Below, piece by piece: positions 244 to 39,125 of a DNA stretch of 39,125 bases; the stretch's first letter is position 1, and every line of letters begins with the position of its first letter. The position numbers and the translations under genes were made by a program. This DNA comes from a virus. The notes below the pieces were generated by a model. The model was not told where the DNA came from. It was given only the letters and a program-made list of their open reading frames with translations, and ran no database searches. Where the stretch lies: positions 1 to 39,125 of IMG/VR virus record IMGVR_UViG_3300046170_000167. One strand, given 5' to 3'.

Positions 244-419
244 GGCACTCAATGTGCTCAGACAACACATAGACACCACCCGTAACACACGGACACACAC
301 AGCACGCACCGACACACATCAATACGCACTGTTATCTATAGGTGTACACCCGTCTATATTGTGTTTACAACAGGTGCAGCACACAACATGTAGTACCCTT
401 GTAAACTACAGCATATAGC
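244..419. other. Non-coding region between replication genes and the terminus
   Basis: No plausible gene lies here. Together with the repeat at 1-243 it forms a gene-free stretch of about 420 bases. Positions 255-330 are a CA-rich tract on the plus strand (GT-rich on the transcribed strand). A copy of the GGTGTACACC palindrome element sits at 333-355. On a circular or concatemeric molecule this region lies directly upstream of the structural operon, so it is a natural place for a late promoter or terminase recognition sequences. Neither role is shown by the sequence alone. Confidence 0.6.
333..355 (-). promoter_or_regulatory. Palindrome-centred element, copy C (candidate late promoter or operator)
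   Basis: This site matches the elements at 8336-8358 and 10905-10927 at about 18 of 23 positions and keeps the GGTGTACACC core. It is the only copy between the replication module and the structural module. Its length resembles a T7-type promoter, but the dyad symmetry would also suit a dimeric regulator. The role is inferred from repetition and placement only. Confidence 0.5.
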
Positions 420-8303: not shown

Positions 8304-8335
8304 TTAAGTCTCCATGCAGGTTGCGAAGGAGATCT

Positions 8336-8358
8336 TATGCTTGGGTGTACACCCCTCT
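8336..8358 (-). promoter_or_regulatory. Palindrome-centred element, copy A (candidate phage promoter or operator)
   Basis: The 12-bp perfect palindrome GGGTGTACACCC (8343-8354) is flanked by tatgct on one side and ctct on the other. The whole 23 bases equal the element at 10905-10927 except for one position. It lies in the 63-base gap between the RNA polymerase stop and the next gene, a classic place for the first phage-polymerase promoter of the replication operon. Dyad symmetry leaves a repressor site as the alternative. Confidence 0.65.
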
Positions 8359-8366
8359 AGTTCGAC

Positions 8367-10875
8367 TTAACTAAAGCAGTATAAACTCGATCTGATCCCT
8401 TCTAGATCTAGGTTGCCCTTCGACGGGGCTTTGGGGAGTTCGATCCGTGCATGTTCTGGCAGTCTTTGAGCCTCAGAAGCCAGTATCTCTGAATAAATAC
8501 ACCGTCCGGCATACTGCTCGATGAAGGCATCTCTGACGACGTGAAACATCTTCCAGGTTTTAGATGGAGTTGTTGCAAAGCTGTCGTGAATTAACATGTA
8601 ATCCCGAATGCCGTTCATCAGTCCTGTCAGCACAGTTCCAAGCAGATGGCTGCTATCCAGACTGTGGATGATATTAGGACTTATCGAAGACCGGACACGC
8701 TTCTTGTCCAGCTTCTTTTCGTTGTCGATGGCAACATTACTGAAAGTCTTTCTTCTCGCTTTAAGTTCACGATCATAAAGAAACAGGTGTACACGCCTGA
8801 CTGACTTTGGGTGATAGCTGTTTACAACCGGAAAGCCGATGGGCGTCTTCCAAATGACAGGCAATCCGTATTCAGACATGGTATGTGCGATGTCTTTAAA
8901 GAACTGCATACCCTCAGCTGCACCTTTGACCACGTCATGTACAGCGTCCCATGTGTGATCAGCCAGGCAGCGACACGCATTGAACTCATCCTCAAAAGGA
9001 AGCTCTTTACGTTCACCCATGGTTATCTCACGCTTCATGGGTTTCATGGTGTCGTCAGCGATTTGCTGCCGGAAGCCAATCCGTGTAGCTGAGTAACCAA
9101 AGGTCATGGTTGGCCGCTTCACAACTTTACGATCAACACCGAAGTCCAGCCATTCCTTGGCCTCTTTAGATCCGTCGTCATTCATTGATGTCCGGACGAC
9201 AGATGCGACAGCTTCGTAGATATCTTCTGGCAGGTCAGTTGGTATCAGGTTCACCAGCTTACCGTCGTTTTCATTTAGACCTAAAGCTGCAAAGTGTTGA
9301 GTCCCTGAGTTAGAACCGTCGAGGTTTATAGGTAGTCCACAGATGTGGTTACCCTCGCCCTTTTCGACGTACTGTAGAAGCTCATATGCAGCCGCTAGGA
9401 AGGCAAAAGGCTTGTCTGCATCCTTCCACAGATCAAATGTGCTTTTGAAGTCTCTGCCGCACTCTAAGATCCATTCCTGGTTGTCCATTGTCCAGGCAAG
9501 TCTCTCATCGAACGACAGCTTGCTGACACGGTCACCTGCTTCATTCTTAAAGTCACCAGCGTTCGCACACTGGTAAGCGACCCACTTAGCACCCTCAACG
9601 TCTAAAGGCTCACCACGGGCTAACAAAAACATCGATCTAACGTGGTCTTCTCTGTGGTGGTTAAAGTTGGGTATAGGGTAGACACGGCCACGCCAGTCGA
9701 AGTTATGCGGCAGCCAGAAACACTCGTATTCAGACATGTTGTCGGCCACCGCTACGTCTGACTTCATGACGGTTATGTCGCTATCGACCTTGCGATTGAA
9801 GGCGACTGTCTCTGAAGCCATAAGTCTATAACGCTTCTTTTCTTTGTCTGGTAGATCAGCGTAGTCGTCAGGAAACTCGACAGCATCTCTTTTGCATTTC
9901 GACGGGAACTTATCGCCCAGGGATTTACCTTCGTCCCACGACCAGCGCACCGCCTCTAAGACATACTCATTGATGACATAAGGGGTTCTTTGGATGGCAT
10001 TGATGGCATCGAATACGTCATTAAACTCTTCGTCTTTAATAGCCTTGCGGATCATAGACCGCTGCTTGGGATTACTTTTGCGTACCAGAGGCGTGAACTT
10101 AGCCATAGCTGGATCTATGTAACATCCGCTATCAGTGTCCGACCAGCCTCTAGGCTCAGTGATCGTAGGCATCAGTATAGGGTGTGACCATGACTCCTCG
10201 AAGTCAGCATCAGCCAGCACTTCAGAGAACTCTTTAGTAAACCCTAGACGGACGATGTCCTTGCCCTTCTCAGTGGCCGTCCATGTCTCGAACATGTCAC
10301 AACCTTCCATCACAGCATTGAACAGCGGCTGAGACATCTTTGTTCTTTTCTCATTAGACCACCAAGTATACTCAAAGCCCTCTTTGGCAGCGACAGCCGA
10401 CACATAGTCTTTGCGTTGCTTTAGGCCGCTGTGACGTTTAACAGCTTCCTTTTCCAGCCTCGAATATAGCTTCTTGTCGTACTCTTTGAGTAGAATACTG
10501 TAGTATTCCATCTCGACACGCATTCCGATCCGGATCAGAAACTTGTTGCGCGGCCAATGTTGACCAACAGCTTCCATGCAGGTGGATAGCGTCAAGTACG
10601 ACAGAAGATCAATATCTAAGTCACACAGCATTTGATACCACTGAGGCTTCTGAAGATGTGGGTCTTTAGCTTCAGTATTAAGTTTATACTGCTGAAGGTA
10701 GCCACTAACAGCATCCACAGCTTCATCCATGAATCTGCTATGTGTCTTTGATATAGATAAGTTCTTTAGATCCGCTTGACGATCTAAGTAACGATCCCGA
10801 CCACTGGAAATCATTTGCTGTTCCAGCGTGATCTGATCGGCCAAGCGTGCCGACGCGCTTTGACTGTAGTTTCAT
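8367..10875 (-). CDS. Single-subunit DNA-dependent RNA polymerase (T7 gp1-like), N-terminus frameshifted
   Basis: This polymerase transcribes phage middle and late genes from phage-specific promoters. Seen: catalytic DGSNSGTQHF (Asp about residue 518), the K...Y motif KRPTMTFGYS (about 585-593), FRQQI, and IHDSFATTP with the second catalytic Asp (about 763). From the first in-frame start, a TTG at 10844, it is 825 aa. A much better start is the ATG at 10875, with GGGAGAG upstream, giving MKLQSKRVGTL; removing one G of the pair at 10841-10842 joins it in frame to ADQITLEQQ, resembling the TLAD start of T7 RNA polymerase. The repaired length is about 835 aa. The host polymerase presumably transcribes this gene from upstream. 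Confidence 0.96.
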
Positions 10876-10904
10876 ATATATCTCTCCCTGAACTCACACA
10901 GTTA

Positions 10905-10927
10905 TATGCTAGGGTGTACACCCCTCT
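10905..10927 (-). promoter_or_regulatory. Palindrome-centred element, copy B (candidate phage promoter or operator)
   Basis: This is identical to 8336-8358 at 22 of 23 positions, with GGGTGTACACCC at 10912-10923. It sits in the gap directly upstream of the RNA polymerase gene, about 30 bases before the preferred ATG. If it is a phage-polymerase promoter the polymerase would amplify its own expression; if it is an operator it would control entry into the lytic programme. Confidence 0.65.
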
Positions 10928-10952
10928 TTTTGACGGTGATATTCAGGAAGAA

Positions 10953-11261: not shown

Positions 11262-11339
11262 ACATTATGTTCAACCTTGCTAATTAACTACATTAATAAT
11301 AGTTACTGTAAACTTTTACAAAGTCAAACATAAATATCT
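11262..11339 (-). promoter_or_regulatory. AT-rich gap after the integrase, possible early promoter
   Basis: This gap is much richer in A and T than its surroundings. On the minus strand it holds TTGACT followed about 20 bases later by TATTAT, and a later TTGAAC. Spacing is not ideal, so a sigma-70-type promoter is only possible. A short symmetric sequence (aacattatgtt) is also present. If active, it would let the RNA polymerase gene be transcribed without the integrase promoter. Confidence 0.3.
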
Positions 11340-12170
11340 TTACAATAGTTTATCCATTGCGTCTGCAACCTTAAAGCGAGTTGACGACACCCCGTGGACA
11401 TACTTCTGGGTTGTCTTGTAGTTCCTGTGACCCAGCATATCCATGATAACTATAGTGTTAGTTTGTAGCTTGTTAGCCATGATCGTGGCGCATGTGTGGC
11501 GGCAGACGTGGAATACAAACTGCTTGTCCCCTCTGGCGATCTTATGCCGTGCTTCGCCCCACACAGTGTAAAACTTCCTTGAGTTGTAACACCGTGAGTT
11601 GTGCAGCTTGGTGGCTGACAGAAGAGCCGCAGACGACAGAGGGATATACCGCTCTCTGCCGTTCTTAGTCTTCGGTAAGTATATCGTTGGTCTATCGCTT
11701 TCCATGTCGTTTCGGAAACCTACCTCGCCCTTGATTAGCTGTACTATCTCACCCAGGCGCATACCAGTACTCAGCGACAGTGTGACCATGTCGGCCATCC
11801 AAGGGGCATCAGAATACTTTAGGAAAGTAAGCAGCTGCTCACGCTCACTATCACTGAAGAACCGCACACGGCCTTCGGCTTGCTTTCTCCAAACGAAGTC
11901 TGGCTTCTCTTTGATCTTCTTGGTGCGCTTTGCATGTTTCATCACGCTGCTAATCGTTGCACCGTACTTATCCAGCGTAGAAACAGATAGACCGTCTTCT
12001 TGTAACTTATCGAAGAATGCGTGGATCTTGTCAGCGTCTATTTTACTGAGTTCTATGTTTCCACAAAACAGAGCCAGCTTCTCAACCCTACGAAGTGAGT
12101 CACCTTGATGCTTAGACCCTTTATTCCAGATCCGGTGACGCTCTAGTTTTACAAAGTCTTCTAGTTTCAT
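11340..12170 (-). CDS. int: Tyrosine recombinase, phage integrase
   Basis: The 276-aa integrase has an N-terminal SAM-like DNA-binding region (about residues 1-95) and a complete catalytic domain: R138 in STGMRLGE, a Lys in PKTKNGRER (about 167-173), H221 and R224 in FHVCRHTCAT, H248 in MLGHRNYKTTQ, and the nucleophile Y257 in KYVHG. It would insert the phage at a host tRNA gene through the attP candidate at 12687-12735. Its ATG overlaps the stop of the previous gene (ATGA), implying coupled translation. Intact active-site residues suggest it works. Integrases upstream of the RNA polymerase are known from some marine T7-like phages. Confidence 0.95.
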   Translation of the reverse strand: MKLEDFVKLERHRIWNKGSKHQGDSLRRVEKLALFCGNIELSKIDADKIHAFFDKLQEDGLSVSTLDKYGATISSVMKHAKRTKKIKEKPDFVWRKQAEGRVRFFSDSEREQLLTFLKYSDAPWMADMVTLSLSTGMRLGEIVQLIKGEVGFRNDMESDRPTIYLPKTKNGRERYIPLSSAALLSATKLHNSRCYNSRKFYTVWGEARHKIARGDKQFVFHVCRHTCATIMANKLQTNTIVIMDMLGHRNYKTTQKYVHGVSSTRFKVADAMDKLL

Positions 12171-12418
12171 GACGCCTCTCCCACACGCTCAAAGTGATCA
12201 CTGTAAAGATGAATGACCAGATTATGTCCCTGTGCATCCTTCATCCCCAACTCGAAACCATACCTGCCATTGTTGTTAAGTTCCTCACAGACATCTAATT
12301 GGTCTATTTGAGATGCAATCCCCCCAGCCCATAAGTTTAAGACCTTGGGGTTTTTATCTTGATTTGAGTCGATCCATTGTTGGATATAATAGACGCCTTG
12401 TTTGTTAACTGTGTACAT
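12167..12418 (-). CDS. Hypothetical protein, 83 aa, coupled to the integrase
   Basis: The protein starts MYTVNKQGVYYIQQWIDS and is polar and slightly acidic, with a LYSDHFERVGE end. No helix-turn-helix or membrane segment is evident. A GAGAGGGG tract precedes its ATG. The stop overlaps the integrase start by four bases, so the two are probably made together. A recombination directionality factor is a reasonable guess from position, but its sequence does not resemble the basic excisionases I know. Confidence 0.65.
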   Translation of the reverse strand: MYTVNKQGVYYIQQWIDSNQDKNPKVLNLWAGGIASQIDQLDVCEELNNNGRYGFELGMKDAQGHNLVIHLYSDHFERVGEAS

Positions 12419-12420
12419 GA

Positions 12421-12636
12421 CTATGCCCCTCTCGTGTTTGCTGATTTTCCAGTCAGTGAAACATGCTGCATTTCGATAGCATTTGCTTCGAGATCAGCGT
12501 CGTTCATTATAGAAACGTCTTTAAGGGGGTTGTGACCGTACACGTCGATATGTGCGTTAACGTAGAGCTTCTCTATGTTTAGGCGGTCTTCTAAATCCCA
12601 GCTCGTGGGTTTTCTGTATAGATTTAGGCTTCTCAT
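12421..12636 (-). CDS. Hypothetical protein, 71 aa, first gene after attP
   Basis: The frame extends to a TTG at 12672, but the ATG at 12636 has AAAGGAG seven bases in front and is clearly preferred. The product (MRSLNLYRKPTSWDLEDRLN...) is polar with mixed charge, and I do not recognise it. It opens the attP-integrase operon. Like the next gene it is a candidate for control of integration, excision or lysogeny, by position only. Confidence 0.6.
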   Translation of the reverse strand: MRSLNLYRKPTSWDLEDRLNIEKLYVNAHIDVYGHNPLKDVSIMNDADLEANAIEMQHVSLTGKSANTRGA

Positions 12637-12686
12637 TTGTGTGCTCCTTTGTGCGTCAGTTTGTCGCAGCAAAGGGGCTAAATGGG

Positions 12687-12735
12687 TGGCGACTCCGGCA
12701 GGATTCGAACCTGCAACCTGCTGATTAGAAGTCAG
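12687..12735 (-). other. Candidate attP core: 3' half of tRNA-Arg(UCU)
   Basis: On the minus strand this 49-bp stretch reads as the anticodon arm through the CCA end of a tRNA: a 4-bp stem around loop CTTCTAA (anticodon TCT), a perfect T arm (GCAGG TTCGAAT CCTGC), then CGGAGTC, a discriminator G, and CCA. The 5' half is missing: no sequence upstream can pair with CGGAGTC and no proper D arm is present. A tRNA 3' half next to an integrase is the typical attP of tRNA-targeting phages, because integration restores the host gene. Confidence 0.88.
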
Positions 12736-12763
12736 AACAGCTAGTTAACCCCTCGCTGTACCT

Positions 12764-12794
12764 ATTATATACCACAGGTAAACACCTTTTACAA
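12764..12794 (-). promoter_or_regulatory. Candidate host sigma-70 promoter upstream of attP
   Basis: A perfect TATAAT lies at 12769-12764 on the minus strand, with TTGTAA at 12794-12789 as a possible -35 box. The 19-base spacer is longer than the ideal 17. It sits between the late terminator and attP and points through attP into the two small genes and the integrase. The spacer contains AGGTGTTTACCT, a weak relative of the palindrome element. Host transcription of the early operon probably starts here. Confidence 0.5.
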
Positions 12795-12802
12795 CCGAAA
12801 GG

Positions 12803-12838
12803 CAAAAAACACCGATAGAGCTATAGACCACTATCGGC
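12803..12838 (-). terminator. Rho-independent terminator after the holin
   Basis: On the minus strand a 7-bp stem CCGATAG/CTATCGG, with inner pairing possible in the loop, is followed by TGTTTTTT. It lies a few bases after the holin stop and closes the long structural-lysis operon. It would keep late transcription out of the attP-integrase region. Confidence 0.8.
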
Positions 12839-15993: not shown

Positions 15994-16134
15994 TTACCAC
16001 TTCCTTATAGGACACTTTGCTGCTTTCAGTTTTACCTTTAAAGGCATAATACAACGACACTTCTTACACTGACTTATTGATGGCCTAAACCATTCGCAAG
16101 CACGACAGATTTCCATACGCTCTTCACTAGTCAT
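15994..16134 (-). CDS. Small Cys-rich zinc-ribbon-like protein, 46 aa
   Basis: The product has the pattern ERMEICRACEWF...CKKCRCIMPLK...CPIRKW, with paired Cys suited to zinc binding. Very similar small proteins occur in many marine tailed phages; their function is unknown. AGGAG lies seven bases before the second ATG (16134), which is chosen over the ATG at 16137. The gene fills the gap between the adhesin and the chaperone-like gene. Confidence 0.75.
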   Translation of the reverse strand: MTSEERMEICRACEWFRPSISQCKKCRCIMPLKVKLKAAKCPIRKW

Positions 16135-17123
16135 CATGCTGCTCCTGAAAGTGTGCCTGTGTTATTCATAGTGTAGGCCACTGTATAGATAACAGCCGCC
16201 CCAGCCGCACCGCCTGATGCACCAGCAGATCCAGCAGAACCATTAGAAGCATTACCGTTAGCACCTGTGCTACCTGTTGCACCTGTTGAACCTGATGAAC
16301 CATAAGCTCCACCACCGCCGCCTGTGCCGCCTGTGCCGCCAGTACCAGCGTTAGTTCCACCAGCCGCCCCTGCGCTACCAGCAGAACCTGTGCCAGCCGA
16401 TTGGTTGTAACCTTGGCCTACTGCTCCAGCACCACCAGCACCACCAGCACCACCAGTTGTTGAAACCGTTGCTCGACAAGTTACAGTGGCTTTGTTGTCA
16501 TCCATAGAACACATTAAACCATTGCTACAACTAACCGCTGTTTCGCCGCCAGCACAGAATTGTTGCCCACCGCCGCCACAGCCAGAAGGACACCCCCCTG
16601 ACCTAACTGTATCCTGATTAAACGAACCGTTACCGCCCTGCCCACCAGTGCCGCCAGTACCACCGCCGCCACCGCCACCAGCGATGAGGCCAGTGTTAGC
16701 GACAGTTATTCCAGAAGAAGCAATACGAATAGCATTACCACCAGCACCACCAACAGCACCACCAAAGCCGATAACACTTCCAGCATTAGTGATTGTTAGT
16801 GTGCCGCCCATACCGCTAGGGGCTGTAAGGGCATCAGATGAGCCTGTGCCGCCTATGGTTACGCCTGATGGTATGATAACTTCTTTAGGCACTGAACTTG
16901 CCCAGTCACTGCCAAATGTTGTTGAAAGGTCTACGTTTGTTGAGTTGCTCAGTGTCTGAAGAATCACACTAGTTGCACCATAAAAATCAGAAATACTTAT
17001 CTGACCAGAAGCAGGGATGCCAGCCGCCGCACCATAGTATTCGGATAGCGATATTGGTGCAGAACCACCAAACTCACCTTGAATATCACTAAGGGATATT
17101 TGTCCACTAGTTTGTAGAGCCAT
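16134..17123 (-). CDS. Glycine-rich tail adhesin, candidate receptor-binding protein
   Basis: The 329-aa protein starts with two copies of a short motif (SGQISLSDIQG and SGQISISDFYG), followed by a beta-rich segment and then a long part dominated by Gly, Ala, Ser and Thr (runs such as GAGGAGGAGAVG and GSTGATGSTGANG). Such Gly-rich repeats form stacked polyglycine helices in the gp38 adhesins of some T4-like phages. Between the Gly-rich blocks lies an insert with six Cys (about residues 177-217). It overlaps the long fibre gene by 17 bases, as expected for an adhesin or tip protein. GAGGAC precedes the start. Confidence 0.7.
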   Translation of the reverse strand: MALQTSGQISLSDIQGEFGGSAPISLSEYYGAAAGIPASGQISISDFYGATSVILQTLSNSTNVDLSTTFGSDWASSVPKEVIIPSGVTIGGTGSSDALTAPSGMGGTLTITNAGSVIGFGGAVGGAGGNAIRIASSGITVANTGLIAGGGGGGGTGGTGGQGGNGSFNQDTVRSGGCPSGCGGGGQQFCAGGETAVSCSNGLMCSMDDNKATVTCRATVSTTGGAGGAGGAGAVGQGYNQSAGTGSAGSAGAAGGTNAGTGGTGGTGGGGGAYGSSGSTGATGSTGANGNASNGSAGSAGASGGAAGAAVIYTVAYTMNNTGTLSGAA

Positions 17124-38855: not shown

Positions 38856-38883
38856 TTGGGACTCCTTTAACAAAAGCCTAACA

Positions 38884-39125
38884 ACAACAACAACAAGTCG
38901 AAGGTTTACTGGCTTTTTGAAATCGACATGACAATAGACCCACGGGGGTCAGATCTTGGGGTATGAGACTCTGATCAGCACCTCGGTACGGCTAAGTCAC
39001 TGTAAACTAACGACATCTGTGATTGCTGACTGTCAATCAGCATGGCGTAGGGTAGCCAATCAGGTCTAGACATTAGACATTTCTGAACATTGTCCGGAAG
39101 GGGCTGTAAATTGTTTATACAAATC
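38884..39125. repeat. Direct terminal repeat, right copy
   Basis: This copy matches 1-243 with one indel and one substitution. It carries one extra aca unit just before the shared start (38881-38883). The hairpin tgctga/tcagca lies at 39024-39042. The repeat is placed 28 bases upstream of the first structural gene and holds no copy of the palindrome element. Confidence 0.85.

Follow-up and report, generated by a model that had tools for sequence, protein, structure and literature searches.

What keeps the polymerase silent in T7-like temperate phages, which for the most part have no CI-type repressor? The question is posed by a viral sequence of 39,125 nt (the window, by which the whole stretch of DNA analysed is meant) that encodes a T7-type RNA polymerase (RNAP) and a tyrosine integrase (int), both on the minus strand, and that is a marine temperate podovirus with an alphaproteobacterial host, probably SAR116. 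The terminator, TATAAT promoter, attP made of half a tRNA, two small genes, int and RNAP of the original prediction are all present on the minus strand, in the order terminator, candidate promoter P, attP, ORF71, ORF83, int and RNAP (Table 1), and the same order of parts is kept in a related phage, L003, whose integrase and RNAP are 78% and 86% identical to those of the window. Relative to L003, the RNAP gene of the window carries a 1-bp frameshift near 10845-10860 that puts the ATG at 10875 one base out of frame, probably through a sequencing error within 10845-10875.

Table 1. Features of the window that bear on integration and transcription.
Feature	Position	Strand	Evidence
Intrinsic terminator closing the late (structural-lysis) transcription unit	12803..12838	-	Fold -17.8 kcal/mol, z -4.2; conserved in L003
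Candidate host-type promoter P, TTGTAA-19-TATAAT	12764..12794	-	Top sigma70-like site of the minus strand; -10 block identical in L003
attP core, 3' half of tRNA-Arg(TCT), 49 bp	12687..12735	-	46 bp identical in host tRNA genes; also in L003
Conserved leader between attP and ORF71 (ACAAACTGACGCAC at 12664-12651, SD, ATG)	12634..12665	-	31/31 identical in L003
ORF71, small conserved protein	12421..12636	-	66% identical in L003; differences mainly at third codon positions
ORF83	12167..12418	-	Absent from L003
Tyrosine integrase (int)	11340..12170	-	PF00589, E 3e-21
Candidate phage-RNAP promoter phi1, 46-bp block AAAAAGAGGGGTGTACACCC..., containing palindrome GGGTGTACACCC	10886..10931	-	Identical in L003; recurs at homologous places
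T7-type RNA polymerase (RNAP), probable start ATG 10875, open frame from 10844	8367..10875	-	PF00940, E 3e-84; phrog_414
Candidate phage promoter phi2, ahead of the replication genes	8333..8357	-	Motif recurrence
Candidate phage promoter phi3, directed across the terminal repeat towards the structural unit	331..354	-	Motif recurrence

The 46-bp core pattern of attP was found at seven loci on genome contigs, all of them from MAGs labelled Alphaproteobacteria, Proteobacteria or SAR116. Six of the seven are intact tRNA-Arg(TCT) genes, and the seventh (L012) is an attR-type fragment from the same MAG as locus L009, where the tRNA is followed by a distantly related integrase in the same orientation, so that this MAG looks occupied at tRNA-Arg by another element. 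Rfam at a relaxed threshold returned only sub-threshold tRNA matches, at the attP of the window and at that of HTVC021P.

Upstream of attP, none of 200 shuffled sequences folds as well as the terminator, and its homologue in L003 has a z of -4.9. P is composed of TTGTAA at 12794, a 19-bp spacer and TATAAT at 12769-12764, and has weak points in its long spacer and poor -35. Because a strict 9/12 consensus promoter scan did not pick P, a PWM of our own was substituted, by which P outscores every other sigma70-like site on the window's minus strand. Its -10 block, TGTGGTATATAATAGG (12776-12761), is identical in L003, with flanks that are only 38-57% identical; the L003 counterpart of P scores 7.4 by the PWM, not clearly above shuffles, and in L079, whose RNAP is 42% identical to that of the window, a TTGACA site just upstream of attP has a score inside the shuffle range. 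A scan of viral contigs with TGTGGTATATAATAGG gave 17 matches, and besides the known relative some of these contigs encode phage replication genes. That conservation with L003 covers the -10 region only, with no -35, and that the block lies ~25 bp from the attP core would also suit a recombination site (an Int, Xis or IHF arm) in place of a promoter, but we consider this quite improbable, as the block is the top-scoring sigma70-like site of its strand and sits between a terminator and the int genes, and a second copy on the other arm was not found. Furthermore, no promoter above shuffles was found in the window between the attP core and ORF71 (12687-12636), nor between int and RNAP, two stretches that cover the positions (12687-12636 and 11262-11339) where, according to the original prediction, a strong promoter would have spoken against it.

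If P is a promoter, host RNA polymerase in the free phage would start there and read via attP into ORF71, ORF83 and int, and RNAP expression would depend on P, with read-through beyond int reaching the RNAP gene. The phage polymerase would amplify its own gene from phi1 and fire phi2 (replication) and phi3 (structure and lysis), and late transcripts would end at the terminator just ahead of P. After integration at tRNA-Arg(TCT), the far junction would carry the terminator and P, now pointing into host DNA, and the restored host tRNA gene would be followed directly by ORF71-ORF83-int-phi1-RNAP, the early promoter being cut off from int and RNAP until excision rejoined them; RNAP in the lysogen is predicted to be low. 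Integration is thus likely to be a promoter exchange, because P moves to the far junction and the cassette stays behind the host tRNA gene. For the model as a whole, free phage and prophage together, the balance tips slightly in its favour.

Int lies upstream of RNAP on the same strand. The label "int-polymerase operon" that had been proposed is only partly right, because the two genes are separated by a 465-bp gap with a conserved 46-bp element, phi1, ahead of RNAP. The window has no strong terminator in this gap; L003 has a hairpin there, and a related prophage in genome G085 has a strong-looking terminator after int (GGGGCTATCGATTGATTTCGGTAGCCCC followed by T8, as judged by eye). The sequence GGGTGTACACC flanks RNAP immediately on both sides and is found again ahead of the structural unit, both in the window and in G001, and in G085 the same three positions carry a different motif, CACGACTGCCAACCTA, which resembles the T7 promoter. 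Position and recurrence indicate that the phi sites are probably phage promoters.

All three phi sites of the window, and G001, also contain the near-perfect palindrome GGGTGTACACCC, which would provide a target for a repressor acting in trans on the phi promoters, either ORF71 or a protein not recognised here, like the MarR proposed in LUZ100, in which case the position of attP would be incidental and inherited with the int module. A MarR gene is annotated before int in most of the related phages fetched. The palindrome is, however, absent from the phi sites of G085, and no MarR-like or other HTH protein was recognised among the window proteins scanned with Pfam; nor was a CI-like one, in agreement with the earlier remark that no such repressor is visible. 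Neither ORF71 nor ORF83 has a significant Pfam match, and the AF2 model of ORF71, two helices at low confidence, is too poor to use. Such a repressor is possible, although we lean against it.

Returning to promoter exchange, the original prediction went further and held that integration could silence or rewire the lytic programme. Rewiring, in the form of the exchange itself, is upheld, but silencing is not supported, since in an integrated window the cassette would follow the host tRNA promoter without an intervening terminator, and candidate phi1 would still precede RNAP. The low integrase expression by tRNA read-through that was also put forward is a conjecture. Integration need not lower RNAP, because transcription of the cassette from the host tRNA promoter may equal that from P. 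The T7-like cyanophages S-TIP37 and P-SSP7, whose attP lies downstream of int, do integrate, yet neither gave stable lysogens, nor was a known repressor identified (PMC8776855), and the position of attP alone therefore cannot be the whole switch. For these two reasons, the replacement of P by a host tRNA promoter and the cyanophages without stable lysogens, the splitting of P from the cassette by integration is rated secure as architecture, whereas promoter exchange as a lysogeny switch is rated plausible.

The cyanophages also raise the prospect that integration of the window phage is transient, with no durable lysogen and no regulatory role for the layout, which we think unlikely because relatives do persist in chromosomes: G083 holds a prophage remnant, and one of 136 SAR116-order genomes, G085 (which we take to be Candidatus Puniceispirillum marinum IMCC1322), carries on a contig of 2,753,527 bp a whole prophage collinear with nearly the entire window. 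The edges of the G085 prophage are marked by a 50-bp repeat of the 5' half of tRNA-Lys. At one junction, int and RNAP adjoin a truncated tRNA-Lys copy, with the host upstream (tRNA promoter) region before them, and at the other, the lysis genes (the late end) lie at the intact tRNA-Lys. The search for integrated relatives thus returned the junction order expected of a crossover at attP that detaches P and the terminator and puts the cassette behind the host tRNA gene, but with a different tRNA half. No clear sigma70 site was found between the lysis genes and the far junction, and G085 was accordingly no longer taken to prove that integration leaves a promoter at that junction. The leader 14-mer ACAAACTGACGCAC recurs exactly between int and RNAP of this prophage (L052 11317).

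Among temperate T7-like phages (pelagiphages such as HTVC019P, LUZ100, the cyanophages P-SSP7 and S-TIP37, and Pasto), the window has in common an int before a T7-type RNAP, an attP in a tRNA gene, and an att located after early genes and ahead of RNAP; with LUZ100 it also shares a phi1 ahead of RNAP, as a candidate in the window. Unlike most of them, it has attP upstream of int and not between int and RNAP (the usual though not universal place) and no recognised MarR gene before int, and its structural module is not T7-like, whereas theirs is of T7 type. In 13 phages and prophages with a locatable att, which are related by descent and so do not represent independent events, att is upstream of RNAP without exception. 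It lies upstream of int in the window, L003, L079 and G085, and tRNA genes, tRNA fragments or att repeats are found between int and RNAP in HTVC109P, HTVC021P, HTVC201P, S35-C6, S-CBP1, ProddE, Pasto, YIMV22061 and prophage G445, with the whole tRNA genes of YIMV22061 and Pasto perhaps being replacements rather than attP itself. More weakly, short anticodon-arm fragments after int suggest an att between int and RNAP in LUZ100, HTVC119P and HTVC019P; att was not located in roseophages CRP-361, -125, -113 and -114, nor in BB8. LUZ100 and HTVC119P each have a whole tRNA-Leu before int (L073 2658-2743 and L110 2905-2990) and a tRNA-Leu anticodon fragment after it (~3910 and 4088, respectively), which suggests that the tRNA-Leu is a replacement for the broken host gene and not a remnant of imprecise excision.

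Only LUZ100 has mapped early promoters. In its transcriptome, int is expressed from a host promoter and followed by a terminator, phi1 lies at RNAP, and the authors propose read-through past int together with MarR repression (PMC10134795). If the early promoter is split from RNAP at attP, such read-through would be impossible in the prophage, and the question thereby becomes testable with attP, attL and attR reporters; no statement of this separation in the prophage was found in the literature searched. It is doubtful that attP acts as a circuit-breaker throughout the temperate phages that encode a T7-type polymerase, such that integration, whatever the position of attP, always severs the early host promoters from RNAP, until excision rejoins them, and is the main cause of prophage silence rather than a classical repressor.

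The nearest logics to the layout of the window are those of ICEclc Pcirc and of mycobacteriophage integration-dependent immunity. Pcirc drives int in the circular form of ICEclc and is not known to do so in the integrated form. The architecture fits that of the window, although ICEclc is a conjugative element with no polymerase gene downstream. Located at the far end of ICEclc, Pcirc is constitutive, faces outward and is given as the promoter of intB13 (PMC2892462, PMC9286271). In mycobacteriophage BPs, the position of attP likewise ties gene expression to integration (PMC4557955), but the attP of BPs is internal to the repressor gene and integration alters the protein, whereas that of the window is intergenic, integration detaches a promoter, and no repressor is recognised.

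Outside this locus, the virion module (12847-38697) has a gene order that is not T7-like, with terminase preceding portal, and the best matches of the portal, at 26-30% identity, are Pseudomonas phages tf, SCYZ1 and others. With a virion order unlike that of T7 and a portal nearest to those of Pseudomonas phages such as tf, the genome is thus a chimera with T7-like replication genes. A 243-bp direct terminal repeat (1-243 and 38883-39125; 241 of 243 positions identical, with one indel) separates the replication and ribonucleotide reductase genes from the structural module; the repeats are probably the genome ends, and their mismatches sequencing errors. The ribonucleotide reductase large subunit occupies two frames at 865-2602 of the window and a single open frame of 573 aa in prophage G085, and the gene adjoining the tail fibre gene (16134-17123) encodes glycine-rich repeats (GGTGGTGCTGG and similar).
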